DNA from: a virus
IMG/VR virus record: IMGVR_UViG_3300037010_000715
Location: 1-39,587 of that record
DNA: 39,587 nucleotides
Direction: 5' to 3' (one strand)
Shown: positions 1 to 39,587 of the stretch, piece by piece
Numbering within the stretch: position 1 is the stretch's first letter
Layout of the letters: every line of letters begins with the position of its first letter
The notes under the pieces: generated by a model
Database searches by the model: none
Told to the model about the DNA's origin: nothing
The model's input: only the letters and a program-made list of their open reading frames with translations
Translations under genes and position numbers: made by a program

Positions 1-155
1 AGTAGATTTAGTAAATTCTAAAATAATAAACGCTAAAACACTTGAAGAGTTACAAACTATGTTTAAAGCATTAACTCCATTAGAGCAAAGAATAGCTACT
101 GAATTAAAAGATAAATTAAAATTAACGCTTAAATAAAATGGAAGGCACAACACAT
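1..155. repeat. Terminal direct repeat, left copy
   Basis: Bases 1-155 recur at 39433-39587 with one difference: position 127 is G here and A at 39559, a silent change in a threonine codon of the ERF gene. A short overlap like this is the usual sign of a circular or circularly permuted molecule assembled as a linear contig. The repeat itself is probably an assembly overlap rather than a biological terminal repeat, because it starts and ends inside genes. Confidence 0.9.
2..136 (+). CDS. ERF single-strand annealing protein, C-terminal fragment (repeat copy)
   Basis: These 44 codons plus stop duplicate the C-terminal end of the ERF gene at 39035-39568. The gene is cut by the contig start and not biologically truncated: on the circular molecule it is whole. 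The fragment holds only the helical tail after the annealing core. Confidence 0.85.
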   Translation, partial: VDLVNSKIINAKTLEELQTMFKALTPLEQRIATELKDKLKLTLK

Positions 156-296
156 ATATTAGAATTAGTTAAAAAAGAAATAATTGAAATAGAGGAATCT
201 ATTGTTTATCATAAAAATAAACTAATTATTTTGGAGCTTAAACTAGAAGATTTACAACATAGGGAACAAAATTTAATTAATTATTTAAACTCGTAA
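138..296 (+). CDS. Small coiled-coil-like protein (52 aa), unknown
   Basis: An ATG one base after the ERF stop opens a 52-codon frame rich in Glu, Lys, Leu and Ile with heptad-like spacing, so probably one long helix. It sits between ERF and the RusA-like gene in a tightly packed run, which suggests co-transcription with the recombination genes. I do not recognise a family. The start is also present in the right-hand terminal repeat at 39570. Confidence 0.6.
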   Translation: MEGTTHILELVKKEIIEIEESIVYHKNKLIILELKLEDLQHREQNLINYLNS

Positions 297-301
297 ATAT
301 T

Positions 302-514
302 ATGAATGTAGCTAATATTACAATATCGGAAAGTGATTATCAAAACCTCCTCTTAAATGGTGCATTTATCGACATCAAATTAATATCGGTAAAAATTATG
401 CCAGACGATAGCGAGATTAAAGAAAATGAATCATATAAATTGGCTATTAAAAACTATAAAAAAGCTAGGGACGTTAAAGAAACTATTGCTTTTAATCTTT
501 TAACAAACAAGTAA
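302..514 (+). CDS. Hypothetical protein (70 aa)
   Basis: A 70-residue soluble protein of mixed composition, five bases after the preceding stop. It has no cysteine motif, signal or membrane segment. Position in the recombination operon is the only clue to its role; no family is recognised. Confidence 0.6.
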   Translation: MNVANITISESDYQNLLLNGAFIDIKLISVKIMPDDSEIKENESYKLAIKNYKKARDVKETIAFNLLTNK

Positions 515-515
515 T

Positions 516-629
516 ATGAAATACCCGATAACATACGAGGAGTGGTGCAAGTTACCAAGGACTATTAAAGCTATGAAAATAATTATGAAGGATTGGGATA
601 ATAGTAAACAGTTAAAGTTAGAGTTATGA
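516..629 (+). CDS. Hypothetical small basic protein (37 aa)
   Basis: A short frame that starts one base after the previous stop and ends in an ATGA overlap with the next gene, the pattern of translational coupling. The product is Lys/Trp-rich (WCKLPR near the N terminus). No function can be assigned. Confidence 0.45.
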   Translation: MKYPITYEEWCKLPRTIKAMKIIMKDWDNSKQLKLEL

Positions 630-772
630 TAAGTTTTATAACTCAATTCGCATCAGCCAAACGACAAAAGAAACGCCTAATATACGATGCACAATATAAC
701 CGCTATCTTGTTACCCATTCTAAAGTCTGGCAAACGTGGTATAAATGTTCGCTAATAAAAAATTTTGTATGA
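626..772 (+). CDS. Hypothetical small basic protein (48 aa)
   Basis: Begins in an ATGA overlap with the 37-residue gene upstream and ends in another ATGA overlap with the RusA-like gene. The chain of stop-start overlaps supports real coding despite the length. The product is rich in Lys, Arg, Gln and Tyr and could bind nucleic acid. Unknown family. Confidence 0.5.
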   Translation: MISFITQFASAKRQKKRLIYDAQYNRYLVTHSKVWQTWYKCSLIKNFV

Positions 773-1089
773 TAAAAGTAAACATAAAACCACTAAGCAT
801 TAATGAAGCATATCGAGGTTACAGAATTAGAACACCTAAATATAACTGTTATATAAGCAATGTAATGATGATGCTCCCTAATAGCTTTATTATGCCTAAA
901 ACGGATATTAAACTATGTTTAGAGTTTGGATTTAGTAACTCAGGTTCTGACATAGATAATTGTTGCAAACCATTTATAGATTGTTTAGTTAAAAAATATG
1001 GCATTGATGACAGATACATAATTGAATTAACAGTAATAAAAAGAATAGTTAAAAAGGGAGAAGAATATATTTTATTCAACTTTTATTAA
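769..1089 (+). CDS. RusA-like Holliday junction resolvase
   Basis: This 106-residue protein matches the RusA family in length and motif order. An N-terminal IKPLSINEAYRG segment is followed by a central acidic core, SDIDNCCKPFIDCL and then GIDDRYI, carrying the aspartates that bind metal in RusA. The family cleaves four-way DNA junctions made by recombination, which fits its place between ERF and the replication genes. I chose the ATG at 769 because it overlaps the previous stop as ATGA; an in-frame ATG at 745 would add eight residues. It is the last gene before the first leader-type promoter. Confidence 0.85.
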   Translation: MIKVNIKPLSINEAYRGYRIRTPKYNCYISNVMMMLPNSFIMPKTDIKLCLEFGFSNSGSDIDNCCKPFIDCLVKKYGIDDRYIIELTVIKRIVKKGEEYILFNFY

Positions 1090-1095
1090 AATAAA

Positions 1096-1127
1096 TTTGT
1101 TTATTAAAATAATTATGTTTTAATTTG
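1096..1127 (+). promoter_or_regulatory. Bacteroidota-type early promoter (leader 1)
   Basis: A -33 box TTTG (1096-1099), a 20-base spacer and a -7 box TTAATTTG (1120-1127), one mismatch from TAnnTTTG. The same spacing recurs at 4042-4073 and 38896-38926, each time just before the same two-hairpin leader. The position of the transcription start is inferred. Confidence 0.65.
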
Positions 1128-1151
1128 CAAACAGATTACAAAGAGTAATTT

Positions 1152-1236
1152 ATTGGACGTTGCAGACCAATCAAAAATTTAGTCAAATAGACTAATAGAA
1201 CCCATTAGAACGAACTGCAACTCGTTTTAGTGGGTT
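1152..1236 (+). promoter_or_regulatory. Kissing-loop RNA leader, copy 1
   Basis: Hairpin 1 is ATTGG/CCAAT (1152-1156, 1167-1171) with a loop containing GTTGCAG (1159-1165). Hairpin 2 is a 15-bp stem with two G-U pairs (1199-1213 with 1222-1236) and an 8-base loop containing CTGCAAC (1215-1221), the exact complement of loop 1. Hairpin 2 is followed by a T-rich stretch and then, 17 bases on, the helicase ATG. Two further copies with different but internally complementary loops occur at 4077 and 38935. Function is inferred to be attenuation, antitermination or protein-mediated control. Confidence 0.75.
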
Positions 1237-1253
1237 TCTTATTTTATAAAATT

Positions 1254-2618
1254 ATGGAATACCAAAAATTTTTAGAAAACAAAAAACATTCAATAGGTAA
1301 TTTTGGATTTAATTCAAATTACATTCCTGAAATTGCTTTTGATTTTCAAAAACACATTATTGAAAAAGCTATCTTAAAAGGTAGAACAGCTATTTTTGCC
1401 GATACTGGTTTAGGTAAAACATTAATCCAATTATCAATAGCTAAAAATATAATTAATCATACTAATAAAAAAGTATTGATTTTAACACCTTTAGCGGTTG
1501 CTTTTCAATTTATTTTAGAAGCTGAAAAGTTAGGTATTGATGATGTTGAATATTCAAAAGACGGTAAACATACTAAAAAAATAGTTGTATGTAATTACGA
1601 GCGTTTGCATTACTTTAATGAAAATGATTTTGTAGGTGTTATTTTAGATGAAAGTTCTATATTAAAAAACTTTGACGGTAAAATTAAAAATTCAATTACA
1701 TCATTTATTAAAAAGATTCCTTATAGATTTTTATCAACTGCAACACCTAGCCCAAATGATTATATTGAATTAGGTACAAGTAGCGAAGCATTAGGATATT
1801 TAGGGTATACCGATATGTTAAGTAAGTTTTTTAAAAACAATGGTAATTCTATTGATATTAGACACGCTGGATGTGAATGGTATATTAAACCTCATGCCGA
1901 GAATGATTTTTGGAAATGGGTATCACAATGGGCTATATCAATTCGTAAACCAAGTGATTTAGGTTTTAGTGATGAAAAATATGATTTGCCAGACTTAATA
2001 GAAAATAAACACATGGTAAAAAATAATGCTATTTTAAATTCAGCAAATAATCAAATGCAAATGTTTAATATGCCAGCCGTTAATTTTTTTGATATTAAAA
2101 AAGAAACTCGTAATACATTAAACGAAAGATGCGAAAAGGCTTTTGATTTAGCTAGTAAACATGATACTAGCGTTTATTGGGTTAACTTAAATGATGAAGC
2201 TAAACTATTAAAACAATTAGATAAAAACTCATACGAGATTAAAGGGGCTATGACTATTGATCAGAAAGAAGAAATGTTAATAGGATTTGCAAAAGGTGAT
2301 ATTAAAAAACTAATTACTAAAACTAAAATAACCGCTTTTGGTTTAAATTGGCAGCATTGCAACCACACTACATATTTTCCTACTTATTCATATGAGCAAT
2401 ATTATCAAGCTATTAGAAGGTTTTGGAGATTTGGACAAAAGAATAATGTAACAGTTGACTTAGTTTTATCAGATGGTCAAACTAGAATAATGGATAGTTT
2501 ATCAGTAAAAAAACAAAAGGCAAACGATATGTTTACAAAGCTATCACAAAATGTAAATAGTATTTATGAAATACAAAAAAGAGAGTTCACAAAAGAAATA
2601 ATTAAACCTAAATTTTAA
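1254..2618 (+). CDS. SNF2/DEAH-type helicase
   Basis: A 454-residue superfamily 2 ATPase. Visible motifs: Walker A DTGLGKT at 50-56, motif II LDES at 131-134, motif III TATP at 162-165, and an arginine-finger motif VI QAIRRFWRFGQ at 385-395. The run TATPSPNDYIELG and the RKPSDLGF segment near 231-238 mark the phage family usually found beside a DNA methyltransferase, as here. The start at 1254 follows leader 1; an upstream in-frame codon at 1230 lies inside the leader hairpin and is unlikely. Role: DNA translocation or remodelling in replication, recombination or protection from host restriction; the exact job is not known. Confidence 0.88.
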   Translation: MEYQKFLENKKHSIGNFGFNSNYIPEIAFDFQKHIIEKAILKGRTAIFADTGLGKTLIQLSIAKNIINHTNKKVLILTPLAVAFQFILEAEKLGIDDVEYSKDGKHTKKIVVCNYERLHYFNENDFVGVILDESSILKNFDGKIKNSITSFIKKIPYRFLSTATPSPNDYIELGTSSEALGYLGYTDMLSKFFKNNGNSIDIRHAGCEWYIKPHAENDFWKWVSQWAISIRKPSDLGFSDEKYDLPDLIENKHMVKNNAILNSANNQMQMFNMPAVNFFDIKKETRNTLNERCEKAFDLASKHDTSVYWVNLNDEAKLLKQLDKNSYEIKGAMTIDQKEEMLIGFAKGDIKKLITKTKITAFGLNWQHCNHTTYFPTYSYEQYYQAIRRFWRFGQKNNVTVDLVLSDGQTRIMDSLSVKKQKANDMFTKLSQNVNSIYEIQKREFTKEIIKPKF

Positions 2619-2632
2619 AAACAAAAAACAAA

Positions 2633-3679
2633 ATGGAAAACAAAGTAAAAGACCAAGTAGTCACAGAAAATTATGCTATTTACAACTCAGATTGTATGTT
2701 AGTATTACCAACTTTAGAAACTGAAAGCATTGATTTATCAGTTTACAGTCCTCCATTTGCAGGGCTATACAACTATTCAAGTAGTGAAAATGACTTTAGT
2801 AATTGTGAAAGTAAAGAACAGTTTTTAGACCAGTACGAATTTTTGATAAAAGAGATTGCAAGGGTTACTAAAAAAGGACGTATTACCGCTGTTCATGTTA
2901 CTGATGTATTTGATAATACTTGTCGTTTGTGGGATTTTCCACACGAAGTAATTAGACTACATGAGAAATATGGTTTTGAATATCGTAATCGTATTACAAT
3001 TTGGAAAGAGCCTTTGAAAGTTCGTATGCGTACAATGGTACAATCTTTAATGCATAAATTTATTGTAGAAGATAGCACAAAATGTTTTACGGCTATGCCC
3101 GATTATGTATTGATATTTACTAAAAAAGGAGAAAATGAAGTTCCTGTAACACACGAAAACGGATTAAAATATTATGCTGGTGAAACTCCAATTTTACAAA
3201 ACATTTTAAGAGCTTGGAATAATGCAAATGATTCTGATTTTAACGAAGCTCAATTATGGGAATATTTAAACACTAAATTTATAAACCATGAAGACCCAAA
3301 ATCAAATAAATTAAGTCATTACATTTGGCAGCGGTACGCTAGTTCTGTATGGGATGATATTAGAATAGACCACATTTTACCATTTAGAGATTCTAAAGAG
3401 GAAGATGATGAAAAGCATGTTCACCCTTTACAATTAGATGTAATTGATAGAATAGTAATGTTATATTCAAATCCTAATGAAGTTGTTTTAACTCCGTTTA
3501 TGGGTGTTGGTAGTGAGGTTTATAGTCCTATTTCATTAGGTCGTAAAGCTATTGGAATTGAATTAAAAGATAGCTACTTTAAACAAGCTAAAATAAATTT
3601 ATCTTTAGTTGAAAAAAGATTTATTGAAAGTGCTAAACAAGTTAATTTATTTGAATCTGAAAATTTAGAAAGTTTATGA
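2633..3679 (+). CDS. DNA N4/N6 (amino) methyltransferase
   Basis: 348 residues with catalytic motif IV SPPF at 39-42 near the N terminus and the AdoMet-binding motif I FMGVGS at 289-294 near the C terminus. This order is typical of beta-class amino methyltransferases that make N4-methylcytosine or N6-methyladenine. The stretch between carries the target-recognition part. Located 14 bases after the helicase and probably co-transcribed from leader 1. No cognate endonuclease is present, so it more likely protects phage DNA or marks it than forms a restriction system. Target sequence cannot be read from the protein. Confidence 0.9.
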   Translation: MENKVKDQVVTENYAIYNSDCMLVLPTLETESIDLSVYSPPFAGLYNYSSSENDFSNCESKEQFLDQYEFLIKEIARVTKKGRITAVHVTDVFDNTCRLWDFPHEVIRLHEKYGFEYRNRITIWKEPLKVRMRTMVQSLMHKFIVEDSTKCFTAMPDYVLIFTKKGENEVPVTHENGLKYYAGETPILQNILRAWNNANDSDFNEAQLWEYLNTKFINHEDPKSNKLSHYIWQRYASSVWDDIRIDHILPFRDSKEEDDEKHVHPLQLDVIDRIVMLYSNPNEVVLTPFMGVGSEVYSPISLGRKAIGIELKDSYFKQAKINLSLVEKRFIESAKQVNLFESENLESL

Positions 3680-3954
3680 TACAAACAGAAACCCAAGTAT
3701 TTATAGCCCTAATTAAAGGAGTAGTTGAGCAATCGACTACTCTTACTGGGGAGTATAAACAGAAACTCAAACAAGAGTTTAATATCTGGCAAAAGCAAGG
3801 TTTTAAAATTGTAGAAGAATTAGAAAAACAAAATAAGGTAAATGAAGAATATGTAAACGATATAACTGATATTTATCATAATATTAACCTAGAAATTAAA
3901 AAGACATTAAATGCAAAATTTAGAAACCCTCAACCTCCCAAACGCATCAATTGA
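3676..3954 (+). CDS. Hypothetical helical protein (92 aa)
   Basis: Starts in an ATGA overlap with the methyltransferase, so it is probably translationally coupled to it. The sequence is mostly amphipathic helix with many Lys, Glu and Gln and ends in the basic, proline-containing tail NPQPPKRIN. No family is recognised. Coupling hints at a partner role with the helicase-methyltransferase pair. Confidence 0.6.
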   Translation: MIQTETQVFIALIKGVVEQSTTLTGEYKQKLKQEFNIWQKQGFKIVEELEKQNKVNEEYVNDITDIYHNINLEIKKTLNAKFRNPQPPKRIN

Positions 3955-4060
3955 TAAAATACAAAACGAATGTTACATAACGATTGACAATAAAAAATTA
4001 CAGATTAAACCTAGTAAATTTATGTTAAATAGTAAAATAAATTTGGATATTAAAAAGTAA
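3911..4060 (+). CDS. Hypothetical small protein (49 aa), overlapping
   Basis: A frame of 49 codons from an ATG inside the end of the 92-residue gene (44-base overlap). It is the only open frame covering 3955-4060. Its end contains the -33 box of the leader 2 promoter. The overlap is longer than usual here, so it may be a chance frame. Confidence 0.35.
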   Translation: MQNLETLNLPNASIDKIQNECYITIDNKKLQIKPSKFMLNSKINLDIKK

Positions 4061-4073
4061 TTGATTAATTTTG
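4042..4073 (+). promoter_or_regulatory. Bacteroidota-type early promoter (leader 2)
   Basis: TTTG at 4042-4045, 20-base spacer, and a perfect -7 box TAATTTTG at 4066-4073. It is the best of the three leader promoters and directly precedes the two-hairpin RNA. Confidence 0.72.
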
Positions 4074-4076
4074 TAA

Positions 4077-4158
4077 AGTTGTCTGGAAGCAACTCAATAA
4101 AAAAATTACTTAAAAACCTTCATTCTGCGTGTCTTCCAGCACAAAGTTTGGAGGTTTT
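4077..4158 (+). promoter_or_regulatory. Kissing-loop RNA leader, copy 2
   Basis: Hairpin 1: AGTTG/CAACT (4077-4081, 4090-4094) closing the 8-base loop TCTGGAAG. Hairpin 2: a 19-base arm pair (4113-4131 with 4140-4158) with two 2x2 internal loops, closing the 8-base loop TCTTCCAG. Seven loop bases, CTGGAAG and CTTCCAG, are complementary. A T-run follows and the next ATG is 16 bases after the stem. Same architecture as 1152 and 38935 with unrelated loop sequence. Confidence 0.78.
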
Positions 4159-4174
4159 TGCATTTAAAAAAAAT

Positions 4175-4351
4175 ATGAAAACAAAAGTTAAATTTTTAGG
4201 TTGTGATAACTTATTAGAATTAGAAAGTACAGTTAATCAATTTCTTACAACAATTAATGCAGATTACTTAGTCGATATTAAATATTCAAGTGTTTTGAAT
4301 AATGAAGAATATTATATTACTTGTTTAATAACTTATATAATTTCTGACTAA
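4175..4351 (+). CDS. Cse60-like small protein (58 aa)
   Basis: A 58-residue protein beginning MKTKVKFLG and continuing with a helix, VDIKYS and a final beta strand. This layout resembles the small Cse60 (DUF2758) family, whose function is unknown; the similarity is by eye only. The ATG at 4175 is chosen because the upstream in-frame TTG at 4061 lies in the promoter. It is the first gene behind leader 2 and shares one base with the next gene. Confidence 0.5.
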   Translation: MKTKVKFLGCDNLLELESTVNQFLTTINADYLVDIKYSSVLNNEEYYITCLITYIISD

Positions 4352-5043
4352 TGGCAAGGCAACAACAAAATACAGTAGATTATTTTCCTTTTTTATGTAA
4401 AGAAGGTGAGGCTATGTTTTATATTGAGAATAAATATGGTAATGATGGGTATGCCACTTGGATTAAGATTTTAAGACAATTAGCAGTTACAAATTATCAT
4501 TATTTAAACTTATCTGAGTATAAAAGTAGGGCATTTTTAAGTTCAAAATGTAAGGTATCTGAAGAAAAATTGATTGAAATTATAACAGACTTATGTTTTA
4601 TTGGAGAATTTAATAAGGAACTTTGGGAGCAAAATAGAATAGTTTTTAGTGAAAAATTCATTGAAAATATTAAGGACGCATATTCTAGAAGAAAGAATGA
4701 ATGTGTCAATATGTTTACATTATGCGTACATTTAAACGCAATGAACGTGCAAAGTGCATACATTTTAGATCAAAGTGCATACGCAAACCCTAAAAAACAA
4801 GACATTAATCCGTATAGTATAGTAGAGTATAGTATAGTAAAGGATAGTAAAGTAAATAAGAGTAAAGTAGAAAATACGATTGAAACTTTTTTTGATGAAG
4901 ATTACCAACTCGAATATATTTTAGATGAAGGTGTAAAAATTTACGGAGCACCCTATCAAATTAAAACTGGTGGCATGTCTAACCAAGCTATAAAAGTTCA
5001 TTGTCAAACTTACAATTTAAAATACCCAAAATCTAATGGTTAG
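4351..5043 (+). CDS. Lin1244/DUF4373-type replication protein
   Basis: 230 residues. The N-terminal half (DYFPFLCKEGEAM, then a compact helical fold up to about residue 125) matches the Lin1244/Lin1753 N-terminal domain seen in phage replisome-organiser proteins. Residues 155-174 are a linker of four pentapeptides (YSIVE, YSIVK, DSKVN, KSKVE) encoded by 15-bp DNA repeats, followed by a C-terminal part that may bind the helicase. By analogy with lambda O, it may bind its own internal repeats as the origin. It overlaps the primase-helicase gene by eight bases. Confidence 0.75.
   Translation: MARQQQNTVDYFPFLCKEGEAMFYIENKYGNDGYATWIKILRQLAVTNYHYLNLSEYKSRAFLSSKCKVSEEKLIEIITDLCFIGEFNKELWEQNRIVFSEKFIENIKDAYSRRKNECVNMFTLCVHLNAMNVQSAYILDQSAYANPKKQDINPYSIVEYSIVKDSKVNKSKVENTIETFFDEDYQLEYILDEGVKIYGAPYQIKTGGMSNQAIKVHCQTYNLKYPKSNG
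4813..4872 (+). repeat. Four 15-bp iteron-like direct repeats (candidate origin)
   Basis: Units start at 4813, 4828, 4843 and 4858 with exact 15-bp period: TATAGTATAGTAGAG, TATAGTATAGTAAAG, GATAGTAAAGTAAAT and AAGAGTAAAGTAGAA. The first two share 12 identical leading bases; the last two have diverged. They lie inside a predicted replication initiator gene, the usual place of phage iterons. Because 15 is a multiple of three they also make a pentapeptide repeat, so selection on protein alone is the rival explanation. Confidence 0.6.
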
Positions 5044-6850
5044 TATTCAATTATTTTATGCCTTAGGCATCGAACCAAAAAACAATAACGGATTTCAACA
5101 AAAGTGTAAATGTCCTAATTGCAAAACAATAGGTAAACAAAATTATCAAGATCTTTGTTTATCTGTAAATTTAGACAATGGATTATACAATTGTCATAAA
5201 TGCGGATGGAATGGATGCGTGGTTAAAGGAGAAACTAAAAGCTATCAAAAACCGATTAGAACTAATTTTACAGCTTTAAGTGATGAAGGATTAGCAATGT
5301 TTACTTCTAGAGGTATTAGTCAAGTAGTGGTTAAGGCGAATAAAATAATGCAGGAATTTGACTTTATCGTTTTCCCTTATTTCAGAAATAACGAACTAAT
5401 CAATAAAAAAAATAGAAGCTTAAAAACTAAGGATTTTAGACAAGCTAAAGATGCTGAAGCTATTATTTACAATTATGATAGGGTTAAAAACGAAAAGGAA
5501 ATAATTATTTGTGAAGGTGAATTTGATTGTATGGCTTTTGAAATGGCAGGATTTACAAACGTAACTTCAGTTAATCAAGGTGCTCCAAACGAAAACGATA
5601 AAAATATTGATAAAAAACTTGAATGTATCACAAATTGCTATGAAGTTTTTGAACAAGCAGAAACTATTTTTATCGCAGTCGATAAGGATGCAAACGGTTT
5701 ACGTTTAGAAAATGAATTGATTAGACGTTTAGGCTCTGAAAAATGTAAAGTAATATCTTTTCCTATTGGCTGTAAGGACGCTAACGATGTTTTGTTAAAG
5801 GATTGTAAGGAAACTTTAATTGAATGCTTTAAACAAGCTAAACAAGTTAAAATTGAGGGTATATTTACTTTAGATGACGTAAAAGATTCAATGTTAAAAA
5901 CATTTACTGAAGGTAAACGAAGGGGAGAAACTACTCATTGGTTTAGATTAAATGAAAATTATACACATCGTTTAGGAGAAATTACTCTTTGGACTGGTTA
6001 CATGAATGAAGGTAAATCTACTTTTTTAAAGCAAATATTATTAGCTAAGGCATATTTTGATGACTGGAAAATAGGCGTATTTAGTCCTGAAGACTTCCCT
6101 GCTGATGAATTTTACGACGATTTAATTCACATGCTTGTTGGTAAAAGTACTGATACTTATGATAAACACGTTATGGAAAGGGCTGAATATAATGATGCTA
6201 TCGACGTAATTAAAAAGAAATTCTTTTATGTTTATCCTGAAAAGGATTTTAGTTGGGAGTCTATTGAGGCTAAAATGTTATACTTAGTTAGAAAGCAAGG
6301 TATAAAAGCTATTATTTTAGATCCATACAATCAATTCGACCACCAAATAGGTAACGGAAGGGAAGACCTTTATATCTCTAAATTTATGGCAAAACTTAAA
6401 AGATTCGCTATAATTAACGATGTTGCAATTCATTTAGTGGCTCATCAAACAACTCCTATTTATGTTGCTGGTCAAAATTATCCACAACCAAATGCTTATA
6501 AAATTAAGGGAGGCGGAACTTTTGCGGATAAAGCCGATAATGTTATATTTATTTGGAGGCAATACAGGTGTACAGATCCAACTAATCCTTCAGTAATATT
6601 TGGAGCTGATAAAATTAAGAAGCAAAGATTAGTAGGTCAATTAGGGCAAAAGGAATTTCATTTTGATTATTTACAAAATAGGTATTATTTAGAAAATAAA
6701 AACCCTTTCTTTGAAGTTAAAATGAAACAATCAAATGTTTTTGAACAACCTAATAAACTTCAGGATAATACAGATTTTGTAAACCAAAGACAATTACCAA
6801 AGGAACCCGATTTAATAACCAACAGCGGGCACGATGAAACCGCTTTTTAA
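5036..6850 (+). CDS. Bifunctional primase-helicase
   Basis: 604 residues with three modules in order. A zinc finger has CPNC (Cys26, Cys29) and CHKC (Cys53, Cys56). A TOPRIM domain has CEGEFD (Glu160) and AVDKDANG (Asp216, Asp218). A RecA-like DnaB-family helicase has Walker A GYMNEGKST at 321-329, Walker B IILDP, and HLVAHQ. This is the T7 gp4/Twinkle arrangement: it primes and unwinds at the fork. It overlaps the DUF4373-type gene by eight bases, forming a replication cassette. The phage encodes no DNA polymerase that I can find, so host polymerase is presumably used. Confidence 0.92.
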   Translation: MVSIQLFYALGIEPKNNNGFQQKCKCPNCKTIGKQNYQDLCLSVNLDNGLYNCHKCGWNGCVVKGETKSYQKPIRTNFTALSDEGLAMFTSRGISQVVVKANKIMQEFDFIVFPYFRNNELINKKNRSLKTKDFRQAKDAEAIIYNYDRVKNEKEIIICEGEFDCMAFEMAGFTNVTSVNQGAPNENDKNIDKKLECITNCYEVFEQAETIFIAVDKDANGLRLENELIRRLGSEKCKVISFPIGCKDANDVLLKDCKETLIECFKQAKQVKIEGIFTLDDVKDSMLKTFTEGKRRGETTHWFRLNENYTHRLGEITLWTGYMNEGKSTFLKQILLAKAYFDDWKIGVFSPEDFPADEFYDDLIHMLVGKSTDTYDKHVMERAEYNDAIDVIKKKFFYVYPEKDFSWESIEAKMLYLVRKQGIKAIILDPYNQFDHQIGNGREDLYISKFMAKLKRFAIINDVAIHLVAHQTTPIYVAGQNYPQPNAYKIKGGGTFADKADNVIFIWRQYRCTDPTNPSVIFGADKIKKQRLVGQLGQKEFHFDYLQNRYYLENKNPFFEVKMKQSNVFEQPNKLQDNTDFVNQRQLPKEPDLITNSGHDETAF

Positions 6851-6892
6851 AAACTAAAAGAGATAAAACTATTAAATAAATAACCAAAGATT

Positions 6893-7174
6893 ATGAAAAA
6901 AAGTAAAGAGTACGCATCTAAAATAGTAGAGGTTGCATATCACGAAGTATTACCAAATAAAGAAACGGTACCTAAAATAGTAGATGCACTTATTACTGAA
7001 TACGCAGAACAACAAATAAAAGAACTTCAATCTTTATTGGATTTAAGCAATCTGCAATTAAAGTCAAGTAAGCAAGATGTTAAAGAACTCAAAGATGAGA
7101 TTGAAAAAACTAAACAATGGAATCTTGAATTAGTTTACGCTAACAAATTTATGTCAATAGATAGTCATAAATAA
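6893..7174 (+). CDS. Hypothetical coiled-coil protein (93 aa)
   Basis: A 93-residue acidic protein whose second half (from about residue 40) is a long coiled coil with repeated Leu/Lys/Glu heptads. It follows the primase-helicase by 42 bases in the same direction. No family is recognised. Confidence 0.6.
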   Translation: MKKSKEYASKIVEVAYHEVLPNKETVPKIVDALITEYAEQQIKELQSLLDLSNLQLKSSKQDVKELKDEIEKTKQWNLELVYANKFMSIDSHK

Positions 7175-7203
7175 CCCAAACAACCAACTAAAAACTAAAA
7201 GAG

Positions 7204-7290
7204 ATGAAAGCCTTTGAGATACTATACATCGCTCCAATCTGCCAAAAAATAACACTAAATAATTGGCAGTTTGTTATTTATTGTAATTAA
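7204..7290 (+). CDS. Possible tiny peptide (28 aa)
   Basis: An ATG at 7204 opens 28 codons. It overlaps a hairpin made by CTGCCAA (7239-7245) and TTGGCAG (7263-7269), followed by TTTG and an AT-rich stretch. The hairpin may be the functional element (a weak terminator of the replication operon) and the frame accidental. The same AAACTAAAAGAGAT sequence precedes both this ATG and the region before 6893. Confidence 0.25.
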   Translation: MKAFEILYIAPICQKITLNNWQFVIYCN

Positions 7291-7301
7291 AATTAAAAAA
7301 T

Positions 7302-7430
7302 ATGCGTTCAAAATTTGATAAAAAACTTACAAAAGTAAGTAAAATAAGAAAAGTTATAAAACTTTGTAAAAAAAATAAATACGTTAAACTAATAGATATA
7401 TTTAATTATGATATGTTTTATCGTAATTAG
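7302..7430 (+). CDS. Hypothetical basic peptide (42 aa)
   Basis: 42 codons with about a third Lys or Arg in the first 30 residues, ending at 7430 just before the -7 box of the lipoprotein promoter. A nucleic-acid-binding role would fit the charge but is only a guess. Confidence 0.4.
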   Translation: MRSKFDKKLTKVSKIRKVIKLCKKNKYVKLIDIFNYDMFYRN

Positions 7431-7433
7431 TTG

Positions 7434-7441
7434 TATATTTG
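7434..7441 (+). promoter_or_regulatory. -7 promoter box of the lipoprotein gene
   Basis: A perfect TATATTTG lies only four bases before the ATG at 7446. No good -33 box is visible 20 bases upstream. If used, the mRNA would be leaderless or nearly so. Confidence 0.45.
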
Positions 7442-7445
7442 TTTT

Positions 7446-7775
7446 ATGAAATATTTATTTATCATATTATTATTTGCATTAAGTTGCAAAAAAAAAGAAA
7501 GTGCTAAACCCTTAGAGGTTGCTAATGTTGAGGTTTATTGTAAATCGGCTAATGCAACGGTTAATACTAATATTTTAGAAACTATCAACACGCAACATTT
7601 TAATAAATCGTTTGAAGTTAGCGATCCCGAAATAGTAATATACGTTAAAAACAATGTTAAGTCAAGTAATGACAGCATAAATATTAAAGTTACTTATTTA
7701 GGTATTACTAAACAACAAGGCATGAAGTGCGTTAATACTATTGGTAATGTTGGATTTCAATTAAGTAGTTTTTAG
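7446..7775 (+). CDS. Predicted lipoprotein (109 aa)
   Basis: The N terminus is MK followed by a hydrophobic run and a lipobox ending ALSC, then KKKES; cysteine 14 would be acylated by the host and the protein anchored in a membrane. The remaining 90 residues are beta-rich with no named domain. It lies between replication and packaging and has its own -7 box. Some phages make an early lipoprotein that blocks the receptor against superinfection (as T5 Llp does); that role is an inference from signal, promoter and position only. An upstream in-frame TTG at 7431 lies in the promoter and is rejected as start. Confidence 0.7.
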   Translation: MKYLFIILLFALSCKKKESAKPLEVANVEVYCKSANATVNTNILETINTQHFNKSFEVSDPEIVIYVKNNVKSSNDSINIKVTYLGITKQQGMKCVNTIGNVGFQLSSF

Positions 7776-7777
7776 TA

Positions 7778-8254
7778 ATGGCAACAAAGCCAAATAAAGA
7801 AAATATTATAACTGAAATTCTTATACTACTTGAAAAGGGTATAAGTTACACTGAATGCATCAAAGTAATTCAAAGTAAATCAAAGTTAGTAGAATCAACT
7901 TTTGCGTCTTATTGGAAAATAGCCAATCAAAGACATTTAGAGGTGCAACAAGCCACGCAAAAAGCAATAGCTGAACAATCTACCGTTAATGACATAGAGC
8001 GTCTTAAAATCGGTATTTTAAATAAAACAGAGGCTTTGAAGATTTTAACTGAAATTGCAAAAGAACCTTTAAAAGAATCTGCTATGGGTATGGTTTCGGC
8101 TAAAACAGAACAAATATCAGCTATTAAAACTATTTCAGAGTTGCAAGGGTGGAATAGCCCTATTAAAACAGATAACACAAATGTTAATTTAAATAGTGAA
8201 TTATCTAAAGAAGATATTGATAAATTAGCTAAAAGTCTTAATGAAAAGTATTAA
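7778..8254 (+). CDS. terS: Terminase small subunit (putative)
   Basis: 158 residues directly upstream of the large terminase with a one-base overlap. The N-terminal 50 residues can form a helix-turn-helix (KGISYTECIKVI). The C-terminal AIKTISELQGWNSP segment matches the usual end of small terminases in this phage group. It would recognise phage DNA for packaging and load the large subunit. The assignment rests on context plus these two segments. Confidence 0.75.
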   Translation: MATKPNKENIITEILILLEKGISYTECIKVIQSKSKLVESTFASYWKIANQRHLEVQQATQKAIAEQSTVNDIERLKIGILNKTEALKILTEIAKEPLKESAMGMVSAKTEQISAIKTISELQGWNSPIKTDNTNVNLNSELSKEDIDKLAKSLNEKY

Positions 8255-9684
8255 TGACACCCGAATATATAAAAGAATTAAAGGTTGCTAAGTATCAATG
8301 CTTAACATCTACTTTATTTTTTTCTCGCTATTTCTTTAAAAAACGTTTCAATCGAAAATTTGTTATTGGTGAACATCATAAAATTATTTCAGATATTTTA
8401 GATAGAGTAATTAGTGGTGAATTAAAGAAAGTAATTATTAACATTGCGCCACGTTATGGAAAGACTGAATTAGCAGTTAAAAACTTTATTGCTCGCGGGT
8501 TATCAATTAATCCTAGTGCCAGATTTATACATTTATCTTATTCTGATGATTTAGCTTTGGATAATTCTGATGAGGTAAGGGAATTAATTAAAAGTGCTGA
8601 ATATCAGGAAATGTTCCCAAATGTTAAAATTAAGCCTAAATCAGATAGTAAAAAGAAATGGTATACTTCAGAAGATGGCGGAGTTTATGCTACAAGTGCT
8701 GCAGGTCAAGTAACTGGATTTGGAGCTGGTCAAGTTGACAATGAAGACGAAATTATAGATAGCTTCTTTGTTGGTAAAGATGGTCAATTATTTGGCGGTG
8801 CTTTAATTATTGACGACCCTATAAAACCAGAAGATGCCGATAGTGATAATGTTAGGGAGCGTGTTAACCAACGTTTTGATAGTACAATTCGTAATCGTGT
8901 TAATAGTAGAAATACGCCTATTATTATTATTATGCAAAGGTTACACGAAAAGGATTTGTGCGGATATTTAATTGATCAAGAGCCTGGCGAATGGACTGTA
9001 ATATCTTTACCATGCCTAAAAGAAGATGGGACTGCTTTATGGGAATTTAAGCATACGGTTGATGAACTAAATAAAATTAAAGCGAATAATAAAATTGTTT
9101 TTGAAAGACAATACCAGCAAAGCCCTAAGCCATTAGAGGGGCTAATGTTTCCAGAAAATGAGTTAAGATATTATAAACCAAATGATATATTGAAGTTTGA
9201 AACCTCAATAGCTTATGCGGATATTGCGGATGAAGGCGAAGATAATTTAAGCGCGCCAGTAGGTCGTAATATTGGAAGTGATATTTATATTACTGATGTT
9301 ACATTTTGTCGTGAAAATACAGGCGTTACTTTACCAATGGTAGCGGATATGTTTAAACGCAACTTAACTACTTATGCAAGGGTAGAAAGTAATGCTATGG
9401 GTGCCATGTTTAATCGTGAGTTAACTAAATTAGTGCCAAATACTAAATGTTTACCAGCTCATTCAAGTACTAATAAATTTACTCGTATTTTAATGGATGC
9501 GGTGTTTATTAAAAAATATTGTGTATTTATACATCCAGACTATCAAACATTACAATATAAAGCATTTATGAAAGAATTAACAAGTTATTTAGCTAATGGT
9601 AAAAGTAAGCATGATGATGCGCCTGACAGTATGAGTGGCTTAGCAATGTTTATTCGCGCAATGTTGCCTAAATATTATTTGTAA
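8254..9684 (+). CDS. terL: Terminase large subunit
   Basis: 476 residues. The ATPase domain has a Walker A-like APRYGKTE at 65-72 and Walker B LIIDDP at 184-189. The C-terminal RNase H-like nuclease has Asp323 in AYADIAD and a late acidic motif HDDAPD at 453-458. It drives DNA into the procapsid and cuts concatemers or headful lengths. The circularly permuted look of the contig fits headful packaging but does not prove it. The next structural gene, portal, is on the other strand, which is unusual. Confidence 0.93.
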   Translation: MTPEYIKELKVAKYQCLTSTLFFSRYFFKKRFNRKFVIGEHHKIISDILDRVISGELKKVIINIAPRYGKTELAVKNFIARGLSINPSARFIHLSYSDDLALDNSDEVRELIKSAEYQEMFPNVKIKPKSDSKKKWYTSEDGGVYATSAAGQVTGFGAGQVDNEDEIIDSFFVGKDGQLFGGALIIDDPIKPEDADSDNVRERVNQRFDSTIRNRVNSRNTPIIIIMQRLHEKDLCGYLIDQEPGEWTVISLPCLKEDGTALWEFKHTVDELNKIKANNKIVFERQYQQSPKPLEGLMFPENELRYYKPNDILKFETSIAYADIADEGEDNLSAPVGRNIGSDIYITDVTFCRENTGVTLPMVADMFKRNLTTYARVESNAMGAMFNRELTKLVPNTKCLPAHSSTNKFTRILMDAVFIKKYCVFIHPDYQTLQYKAFMKELTSYLANGKSKHDDAPDSMSGLAMFIRAMLPKYYL

Positions 9685-9688
9685 TTAC

Positions 9689-9696
9689 TATATTTG
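9689..9696 (+). promoter_or_regulatory. -7 promoter box after terL
   Basis: A perfect TATATTTG four bases before an ATG, with a partial -33 element (TTG) 22 bases upstream. It could drive the 38-residue membrane peptide gene as a near-leaderless transcript. Confidence 0.4.
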
Positions 9697-9700
9697 TATA

Positions 9701-14395: not shown

Positions 14396-14469
14396 TGCGC
14401 CTTAGAGAAGCGGTTCATCTCGCCAGACTCATTATCTGGAAATCATTGGTTCGATTCCAATAGGCGCTA
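14396..14469 (+). tRNA. tRNA with CAU anticodon
   Basis: A full 74-base cloverleaf. Acceptor stem: GCGCCT (14397-14402) with AGGCGC (14462-14467) plus a T1:T72 mismatch. D stem: GAGA/TCTC with GG in the loop. Anticodon stem: CCAGA/TCTGG around loop CTCATTA (anticodon 14430-14432). T arm: ATTGG/CCAAT with loop TTCGATT. U8, A9, U33 and the TTC are canonical. CAU means Met or, with lysidine, Ile. The unpaired 1:72 and A11:U24 recall initiator tRNA, but the GGG/CCC anticodon-stem pairs are absent and U37 is odd. CCA is not encoded. Confidence 0.85.
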
Positions 14470-33712: not shown

Positions 33713-34564
33713 ATGAATGTATTAAGTTTATTTGATGGTATGAGTTGCGGACAGATTGCACTCGATAATTTAGGAATAAAAGTAGATAATTACTTTGCTA
33801 GTGAAATTAAAAAACACGCAATACAATGTACTAAAGATAATTTTCCAAACACAAAACATATTGGAGATGTAACGAAAGTAAAAGCTATTGATTTGCCTAA
33901 AATTGATTTGTTGATAGGTGGAAGTCCTTGTCAAGATTTTAGTCGTGCAAATAGTGTTCGTGATGGTTTACAGGGTATGAAATCAATGTTATTTTATGAA
34001 TACATACGATTACTTGAAGAAACGAAACCAAAATACTATTTACTCGAAAATGTGATAATGGATGATATAGGCTACAGTACAATATCCGATTTATTAGGAA
34101 CTGAACCTGTAAGATTATGCGGATCGAAAGTAAGCGGGGCATTAAGAGATAGATTGTTCTGGACTAATATTGGACCTGAAAGATTTGATTTGTTTGGAAA
34201 CCGAAAAAGTGCAATACCACAACCGAGAGATAAAAAAATATTATTGAATGATGTTTTAGAATACGGATATTCAGACAAAAAGAAACATACTTGTTTAAAT
34301 ACAAGTTGTGGCCGAGATGCTAACCAAAGATATATGTTGCACCGATACGCAACTACTGGAATGACAACAATAATTTATACAGACGAAACTATGGATGAAA
34401 GTAAAGGAGTGAGATATTGCACTCAAACAGAATTAGAAAAACTGCACAATATCCCAATAGGTTATACAAAAAACCTAAATAAAGCGCAAGCTGGTAATTT
34501 AATAGGCGATGGTTGGAATGTAGGGATTGTGGAGCACATTTTCTCTTATATGCAATTAACGTAG
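33713..34564 (+). CDS. Cassette 4 cargo: DNA C5-cytosine methyltransferase
   Basis: 283 residues with the ordered motifs of the family: motif I FDGMSCG at 7-13, motif IV GGSPCQDFS with catalytic Cys73, motif VI ENV at 112-114, a DRLFW motif VIII-like element, and the C-terminal GNLIGDGWNVGIVEHI of motifs IX-X. The target-recognition part is short. It would methylate cytosine to 5-methylcytosine, protecting DNA from host restriction. It is the largest cargo and the only clear enzyme with a known reaction. The ATG at 33713 follows attC4 by 30 bases; the earlier in-frame TTG lies inside attC4. Confidence 0.92.
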   Translation: MNVLSLFDGMSCGQIALDNLGIKVDNYFASEIKKHAIQCTKDNFPNTKHIGDVTKVKAIDLPKIDLLIGGSPCQDFSRANSVRDGLQGMKSMLFYEYIRLLEETKPKYYLLENVIMDDIGYSTISDLLGTEPVRLCGSKVSGALRDRLFWTNIGPERFDLFGNRKSAIPQPRDKKILLNDVLEYGYSDKKKHTCLNTSCGRDANQRYMLHRYATTGMTTIIYTDETMDESKGVRYCTQTELEKLHNIPIGYTKNLNKAQAGNLIGDGWNVGIVEHIFSYMQLT

Positions 34565-38895: not shown

Positions 38896-38926
38896 TTGCA
38901 CAATTAAAAAAGATTAATTAATTTTA
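38896..38926 (+). promoter_or_regulatory. Bacteroidota-type early promoter (leader 3)
   Basis: TTG (38896-38898; CTTG instead of TTTG), a 20-base spacer and -7 box TAATTTTA (38919-38926), one mismatch. Same spacing as leaders 1 and 2. Confidence 0.6.
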
Positions 38927-38934
38927 CCGAGTTG

Positions 38935-39012
38935 GACGGTGGAGCGTCATATCAAACAACTAAAATTTTAACCCGATTGCCTGAGGAACTCCACTTCCAA
39001 AGGCGTCGGGTT
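38935..39012 (+). promoter_or_regulatory. Kissing-loop RNA leader, copy 3
   Basis: Hairpin 1: GACG/CGTC (38935-38938, 38945-38948) with loop GTGGAG. Hairpin 2: AACCCGA pairs with TCGGGTT, then a bulge, TGCCT/AGGCG, a 2x2 loop and GG/CC, presenting CTCCAC (38989-38994). Six loop bases are complementary. TTTCTTATTT follows as in leader 1, and the ERF start is 22 bases after the stem. Confidence 0.74.
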
Positions 39013-39034: not shown

Positions 39035-39568
39035 ATGGAAAACAAAACTATTGAAACGTGCTTAATGCAATTTCAAACAGAGATTGGAATCATTAAAAAA
39101 GATTCTAAAAACCCACATTTTAAAAATACCTATGCTAGTTTAGGTCAAATACTAAGCGAAGTAAAACCTATTTTAACAAAGTGTGGATTAGTATTATTAC
39201 AACCTATTGATGCTAATGGTGTTACTACTAAAATATTAATGGCTGGAGGCTCAGAAACGGACTTTGTAGAATCGTTTATTCCTTTACCTATTGGATTAGC
39301 ACCGCAACCTTTAGGCTCTGCAATTACTTATTATAGACGTTATACGTTAAGTTCATTACTAGCTTTAGAAATTGATGATGATGATGCTAGTATGGCTAGT
39401 AAGCCAGTAGAACAAAAACCAACCGCAAACGAAGTAGATTTAGTAAATTCTAAAATAATAAACGCTAAAACACTTGAAGAGTTACAAACTATGTTTAAAG
39501 CATTAACTCCATTAGAGCAAAGAATAGCTACTGAATTAAAAGATAAATTAAAATTAACACTTAAATAA
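39035..39568 (+). CDS. erf: ERF-family single-strand annealing protein
   Basis: 177 residues with the ERF core: NPHFKNTYASLGQIL at about residues 28-42, VKPILTKCGL, and GSAITYYRRYTLSSLLALEIDDDDA at about 90-114. ERF proteins coat single-stranded DNA and anneal complementary strands in phage recombination. They fit with the RusA-like resolvase downstream across the circular junction. It is the first gene behind leader 3. The C-terminal 44 residues are repeated at 2-136. Confidence 0.92.
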   Translation: MENKTIETCLMQFQTEIGIIKKDSKNPHFKNTYASLGQILSEVKPILTKCGLVLLQPIDANGVTTKILMAGGSETDFVESFIPLPIGLAPQPLGSAITYYRRYTLSSLLALEIDDDDASMASKPVEQKPTANEVDLVNSKIINAKTLEELQTMFKALTPLEQRIATELKDKLKLTLK

Positions 39569-39587
39569 AATGGAAGGCACAACACAT
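39433..39587. repeat. Terminal direct repeat, right copy
   Basis: Matches bases 1-155 with one silent difference at 39559. Joining the two gives a continuous operon from ERF into the 52-residue gene at 138. Confidence 0.9.
39570..39587 (+). CDS. Start of the 52-residue gene (repeat copy)
   Basis: Six codons identical to the start of the gene at 138-296, cut by the end of the contig. Confidence 0.7.

Follow-up and report, generated by a model that had tools for sequence, protein, structure and literature searches.

The promoter-proximal leader at 4042-4174 and its two companion copies

The window (the whole stretch of viral DNA analysed, 39,587 nucleotides) includes a gap at 4042-4174, between a short ORF ending at 4060 and a 58-aa ORF starting at 4175. 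This gap holds a promoter, two hairpins and a T-tract, and we refer to it as copy 2 because two related leaders occur elsewhere in the window. Copy 2 is a member of a cis-acting 5' leader RNA family in Bacteroidota phages. Its features and the genes behind it are as follows.

4042-4073, + strand: promoter of Bacteroidota sigma-A type, TTTG-N20-TAATTTTG, with the -33 TTTG at 4042-4045, a 20-nt spacer and TAATTTTG at 4066-4073 (from the sequence; box-to-start distance from PMC9723704)
4077-4094, + strand: H1, the 5'-terminal hairpin (loop 4082-4089; predicted +1 at 4078)
4095-4111, + strand: A-rich single-stranded linker from H1 to H2 (fold, alignment)
4112-4159, + strand: H2, a long terminator-like hairpin with two internal loops and a T5 end
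4132-4139, + strand: loop of H2, TCTTCCAG
4175-4351, + strand: first ORF behind the leader, 58 aa, Spore_Cse60 (PF10957; Pfam)
4351-5043, + strand: second ORF behind the leader, Lin1244_N (PF14297; Pfam)

At the DNA level, H1 consists of AGTTG, the loop TCTGGAAG and CAACT (GUUG, UCUGGAAG and CAAC in the RNA), and H2 reads in the RNA as AAAAACCUUCA..GUG, loop UCUUCCAG, CAC..UGGAGGUUUUU, with pairing that continues across the two internal loops. Seven bases of the H1 loop (CTGGAAG, 4083-4089) are exactly complementary to seven of the H2 loop (CTTCCAG, 4133-4139), giving CUGGAAG and CUUCCAG in the RNA. The complementarity ends at the loop borders, and we therefore ruled out an extended antiterminator in copy 2 and interpret the pairing as a loop-loop contact, or kiss. 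A classical, mutually exclusive antiterminator fold was not found; in copy 2, the minimum-energy fold is also the centroid and has no competing stem. The fold of 4076-4174 (RNAfold) has an energy of -24.5 kcal/mol (z -4.17), which was matched by 0 of 200 shuffles, and none of 3000 dinucleotide shuffles of the leader with the promoter box held fixed gave a kissing leader with a T-tract.

A promoter box of this kind is placed at -12 to -5 in Flavobacterium psychrophilum by PMC9723704. Given this spacing, transcription of copy 2 is predicted to start with the first G in the GUUG stem, at 4078. Thus, H1 would form at the very 5' end of the RNA, as a sequence-only reading of this DNA had proposed, and the position of the promoter does not predict a start downstream of H1. 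The location of the promoter and of both hairpins given in that reading was confirmed on the sequence and by folding, its long second hairpin was borne out, and the proposed loop-loop contact is supported by the covariation across phages described below. The Lin1244_N gene does sit within the replication cluster, and PF14297 is the former DUF4373 named there; it is the second ORF, and the small Cse60-like ORF comes first. The Spore_Cse60 family is known from sporulation, and here it opens a phage replication operon. We also considered melting of H1 by a ribosome on the upstream gene, and rejected it: the stop codon occupies 4058-4060, 17 nt ahead of the start of H1.

Two more leaders were identified near the ends of the window.

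1096-1128, + strand: promoter of copy 1, whose box TAATTTGC (1121-1128) matches TAnnTTGY, not TAnnTTTG
1133-1151, + strand: additional 5' hairpin of copy 1, immediately 5' of H1 (fold)
1152-1171, + strand: H1 of copy 1, kissing bases 1159-1165
1198-1237, + strand: H2 of copy 1, terminator-like, kissing bases 1215-1221
1254-2618, + strand: DEAD/SNF2-type helicase ORF behind copy 1 (Pfam)
38896-38926, + strand: promoter of copy 3, TTG ... TAATTTTA (sequence)
38930-38961, + strand: H1 of copy 3, an outer AGTTG/CAACT plus a nested hairpin, kissing bases 38939-38944
38970-39012, + strand: H2 of copy 3, terminator-like, kissing bases 38989-38994
39035-39568, + strand: ERF single-strand annealing protein ORF behind copy 3 (Pfam)

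Both copies had been proposed before and both are real. Copy 1 pairs GTTGCAG with CTGCAAC, and copy 3 pairs GTGGAG with CTCCAC, for six Watson-Crick pairs and one possible G-U. Copy 3 escaped the 7-base detectors; it was spotted by eye and then checked. The box of copy 1 is of the F. psychrophilum TAnnTTGY (SM5) type rather than the sigma-A consensus and thus, judging by this motif, copy 1 may be under the control of a different sigma factor. Other features of the window include a tRNA-Met (CAT) gene (14396-14469, + strand) within the structural gene region, and a near, inexact repeat of the ends (about 1-154 and 39434-39587), where the first bases encode the C-terminus of the ERF ORF. No exact end repeat of 21-400 bases is present in the window.

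Covariation of the two loops

The kiss was examined with searches in which the loops were left free. The first used the H2 stem of the copy 2 class as its pattern and left the loop and upper stem open as 16 unspecified bases. It matched 17 viral stretches that represent 14 distinct sites, including the one in the window; one site was left out for having too little upstream sequence. At all 13 usable sites the 7-base complement occurs in an upstream hairpin loop at near-constant position, versus 10 of 143 swapped partners. The loops include CTGGAAG, GTGGTAG, GTAGGAG, CTAGCAG, GTCGAAG and GTGGAAG. The pattern contained TTTTT, so this search is uninformative on T-tracts. The second search took the H1 stem of another class as its pattern, left 8 loop bases free and matched 36 stretches (24 distinct, 23 of them usable, with one left out for too little downstream sequence). 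An 8-base complement follows 33-37 nt on in 21 of the 23, compared to 7 of 366 swapped combinations for 8-mers and 10 of 366 for 7-mers, and both of the misses lack a promoter. A pattern of H1 only matched 120 stretches, of which 80 were tested; these are 72 distinct sites, 70 with enough sequence. Here, 6-mer matches were found in 10 of 70 own pairings, versus 8.8% of swapped ones. Almost all are chance sites, with essentially one real leader (L139). The remaining stretches were used in later scans only.

In an alignment of 11 sequences of one class, pairing in the kissing helix is 100%, with changes on both sides at three of the seven pairs. The structure plus kiss pairs in 95.6% of cells, a value that falls to 36-54% if the alignment is slid by 1-3 columns, and across the whole structure 31 cells have changed on both sides, versus 9.2 in shuffles. 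G-U pairs in H2 occur on the sense strand. Because the loops covary, we conclude that the complementarity of seven to eight loop bases is selected; two loops with covarying complementarity, as established here by sequence covariation, are the mark of a cis kissing-loop RNA.

Relatives of three window proteins were fetched, and each locus was scanned for the architecture using the sense rule and three composition-preserving decoy rules, in which the loop was reversed, complemented or repeated. With the promoter required, the first scan returned 27 sense matches, versus 1, 2 and 1 for the decoys. The final scan (263 loci, 2.62 Mb, both strands) returned 138 versus 54, 25 and 70, and 87 versus 10, 5 and 6 if a T-tract was required. 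Tight geometry (H1 2-8 nt past the box, kiss distance 44-58) left 77 sites versus 1, 0 and 0 decoys; a T-tract, which was not a condition of that count, is present in 72 of the 77, versus 0, 0 and 0 decoys. The tight limits were derived from the same data and the matches include repeated sequences, so the loop-blind searches are the cleaner tests. Several scan matches within coding DNA (e.g., L123, L243) are chance.

Two sets of leaders were used for counts. One, of 61 leaders, was drawn from 111 distinct detector matches by T-tract, distance from the box (0-28 nt) and kiss distance (40-70), with three kept by hand that had no T-tract call (L015, L093, L052) and five removed by hand (two in L014 and one each in L016, L193 and L249). 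The other, of 31 leaders, was chosen by eye among detector matches for which a T-tract was not required. A link between linker length and stack length was rejected in the latter set (r = -0.21).

Some observations on individual leaders are of interest. One contig (L085) carries the same loops at 4125 (+) and 8090 (-) with different genes behind them, apparently a recent duplication. Loops of different leaders could cross-pair within a contig in 2 of 28 ordered pairs, both from this duplicated leader, and between contigs in 5.7%, which is evidence neither for nor against avoidance of cross-pairing among the copies of one phage. Within the 150 nt before position 6001 of L084 there is a possible 10-base complement (AACCGCCAAG/CTTGGCGGTT) with a helicase relative behind; this candidate lacks a clear H1 stem. 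Inspected by eye, the H2 of L015, L020 and L089 has, beneath the kissing loop, a recurrent UGAA/GGAU internal loop in which G-A mismatches occur in tandem.

Distribution in phages and genes behind the leaders

Leaders were identified in the genomes of cultured Flavobacterium phages. Three are present in hattifnatt9-1 (MN812207), ahead of genes at 9441, 13398 and 14488 that include the helicase and the HNH gene, three in snusmum6-1 and two in FCV-1, and one precedes the CDS at 33738 of Flavobacterium phage 11b. The FCV-1 leader was matched over at least 80% in 65 Flavobacterium phage records, mostly from F. columnare. Single detections of uneven strength were made in contigs binned to Lutibacter, Bacteroidales, Prolixibacteraceae and Saprospiraceae; none was detected in Nonlabens phage P12024S. 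A search of the species-genome collection, which covers 84,980 species of bacteria and archaea, did not yield any match to the class A pattern, and 395 genomes from the order of G005 did not yield any to the long-loop pattern. Thus, from these searches, both classes look phage-borne. The original observation on the leader is confirmed, and it is larger in extent than was supposed.

The leaders mostly precede genes for replication, recombination and homing. These encode helicase, primase-like, Lin1244_N, NUMOD4/HNH, ERF, DUF6291 and HTH_36 proteins (ten were assigned using Pfam and the others by their sequence). Other sigma-A-like promoters of the same phages have plain leaders instead.

Rfam release 15 at gathering threshold reports one tRNA and nothing else in the whole window, and nothing in L108, L110 and L112. 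At a relaxed threshold the best hit to 4060-4185 has an E-value of 1.8, far below gathering scores. We found no description of such a leader in the open-licence literature, although an earlier one may exist in a 2017 survey that reportedly yielded 224 candidate RNAs. The leaders appear to form a structured RNA family, so far unlisted, in Bacteroidota phages.

A terminator-like hairpin next to the start codon

The sequence-only reading did not comment on the resemblance of H2 to an intrinsic terminator next to the start codon, nor did it offer a mechanism. As in an attenuator, a stable hairpin (median for H2 -19.8 kcal/mol) with a T-tract lies between the promoter and its gene. In the 31 leaders chosen by eye, a T-run after the stem was found in 29 by regular expression and in the other two by eye, and the start codon is located 11-34 nt past the GC stem of H2, mostly 12-20. 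The region before the start codon of leader genes is T-rich rather than A-rich as is usual: from -20 to -10, T makes up a fraction of 0.63 ahead of the three leader genes of the window and of 0.27 ahead of 43 other genes. In the 61-leader set, which is biased by its selection partly on T-tract and offset, at least 4 of 6 bases past the stem are T in 54, whereas at least 4 of 6 before the stem are A in 30, suggesting that the T-tract is not kept solely for pairing. This argument is comparative and is not drawn from a plain terminator scan, since the latter found 4 sites in 1-9700 (two of them H2 of copies 1 and 2) versus 3.1 expected in shuffles. H2, whose terminal T-tract lies close ahead of the start codon, resembles an intrinsic terminator set between a promoter and its gene. 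In 47 of 57 cases, the preceding ORF on the same strand ends inside the promoter or no more than 100 nt before it. As the promoter usually abuts or overlaps the upstream stop codon, H2 would usually be the only visible terminator between the two operons.

The structure of the leader is well supported, and from it we infer a mechanism. The leader probably decides if the genes that follow are read. An unconditional terminator before a gene would be harmful, so a fraction of transcripts must pass. The reading that we rank as most likely, and to which we give a little less than even confidence, is attenuation by a terminator that is nucleated by the transcript's own 5' hairpin. RNA would start from the sigma-A-type promoter at H1 or a few bases from it (in 55 of the 61 leaders, a set limited to 0-28 nt past the box, the first base of H1 lies between -2 and +5 relative to the predicted start), and the loops of H1 and H2 would kiss during transcription. 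Median energies in the same set are -2.4 kcal/mol for H1, -0.6 for the H2 tip and -8.9 for the kiss, the last computed by duplex stacking, not a kissing model. Thus, H1 and the H2 tip are each marginal and the strong kiss probably holds both together. An internal loop lies above the longest H2 helix in 49 of 61 leaders. The kiss does not have to wait for synthesis of the 3' arm of H2 and could therefore nucleate H2, which would then zip down into an intrinsic terminator. The stop signal would thereby depend on the 5' end of the transcript itself, and freeing or occupying H1, whether by a protein, another RNA or transcription speed, would let polymerase through. H2 would also terminate the upstream operon. 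We have less confidence in a further, doubtful reading, a phage-specific class of RNA device in which the first hairpin reads the terminator loop and decides the passage of polymerase without protein or ligand, so that a promoter's own transcripts are parted from upstream read-through.

Next in rank after attenuation is the possibility, which we consider somewhat doubtful, that the kiss has the opposite effect: at the 5' end of promoter-proximal RNA it would let polymerase pass H2, and perhaps later terminators, while H2 stops polymerases that arrive from upstream. The put RNA of phage HK022 lets polymerase pass terminators. The order promoter, H1, terminator, gene demands passage, and the close upstream genes, the position of H1 at the predicted start and the occurrence of as many as three copies in one phage, ahead of separate operons, are all consistent with bypass. 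However, only loop bases take part in the pairing, which H2 can accommodate while closed; the terminator stem is thus not itself blocked, and RNA from upstream read-through would bear the same H1 and H2.

It is unlikely that the kissed hairpins are primarily a shield of the mRNA against 5'-dependent RNases, with the T-tract as a by-product or as a terminator of the upstream operon only. H1 is at the predicted 5' end, but it is weak alone (the median given above, and -0.8 kcal/mol in many class A members), other promoters of these phages do with plain leaders, and a shield would not require a T-tract beside the start codon. Quite improbable is control of translation, in which the complex would alter access to the start codon for ribosomes that work without Shine-Dalgarno pairing. 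The short distance from the H2 stem to the start codon could be taken to suggest this, but H2 does not extend into the start region, the pairing predicted for copy 2 stops short of the start codon (the fold ends at 4174), and the stretch before the start is T-rich in place of the usual A-rich region. Chance, or an inverted repeat that acts at the DNA level and has no RNA role, is barely credible: the H1-only pattern did give almost only chance sites and the loose detectors without geometry also returned decoys, but a chance origin is rejected by own versus swapped loops in the loop-blind searches, alignment covariation, tight-geometry decoy counts and the 0 of 3000 shuffles, and the position on the sense strand behind a promoter and the G-U pairs of H2 speak against an inverted repeat.

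The leader shares features with several known systems. It has the order of intrinsic attenuators (promoter, structured leader, terminator-like hairpin with T-tract, then gene), but no leader peptide, ligand domain or antiterminator stem was found in copy 2, and here it is a 5'-terminal hairpin that would touch the terminator loop. The put RNA, too, places a pair of hairpins close to the 5' end of the transcript in a phage that has more than one copy; the kissing leader differs in carrying a terminator-like hairpin of its own, and we know of no loop-loop pairing in put. In the purine riboswitch two hairpin loops of a leader kiss in cis, as is proposed here, although the kissing leader has no visible conserved ligand core and its loop bases vary freely if they match. 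ColE1 RNA I and RNA II and other antisense kissing pairs use about 7 complementary loop bases, as does the leader (often with an 8-nt loop and one 5' base to spare), but both leader loops are in one RNA, about 50 nt apart. In pyrG-type attenuation in Bacillus the extreme 5' end of the transcript likewise acts on the leader terminator; there, added 5' G residues pair with the terminator stem, whereas in the phage leader a formed hairpin would pair loop to loop.

In summary, copy 2 and its relatives are attenuator-like phage leaders with a covarying kiss between a 5' hairpin and a terminator-like hairpin. The timing of gene expression is little known in Bacteroidota phages, where the family occurs. 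Given that leaders are present in cultured phages (hattifnatt, snusmum, 11b and those that match the FCV-1 leader), the family is testable now. The arrangement of a promoter, a terminator-like hairpin that the 5' hairpin looks designed to grip, and a gene poses the question of how a loop-loop contact alters termination.
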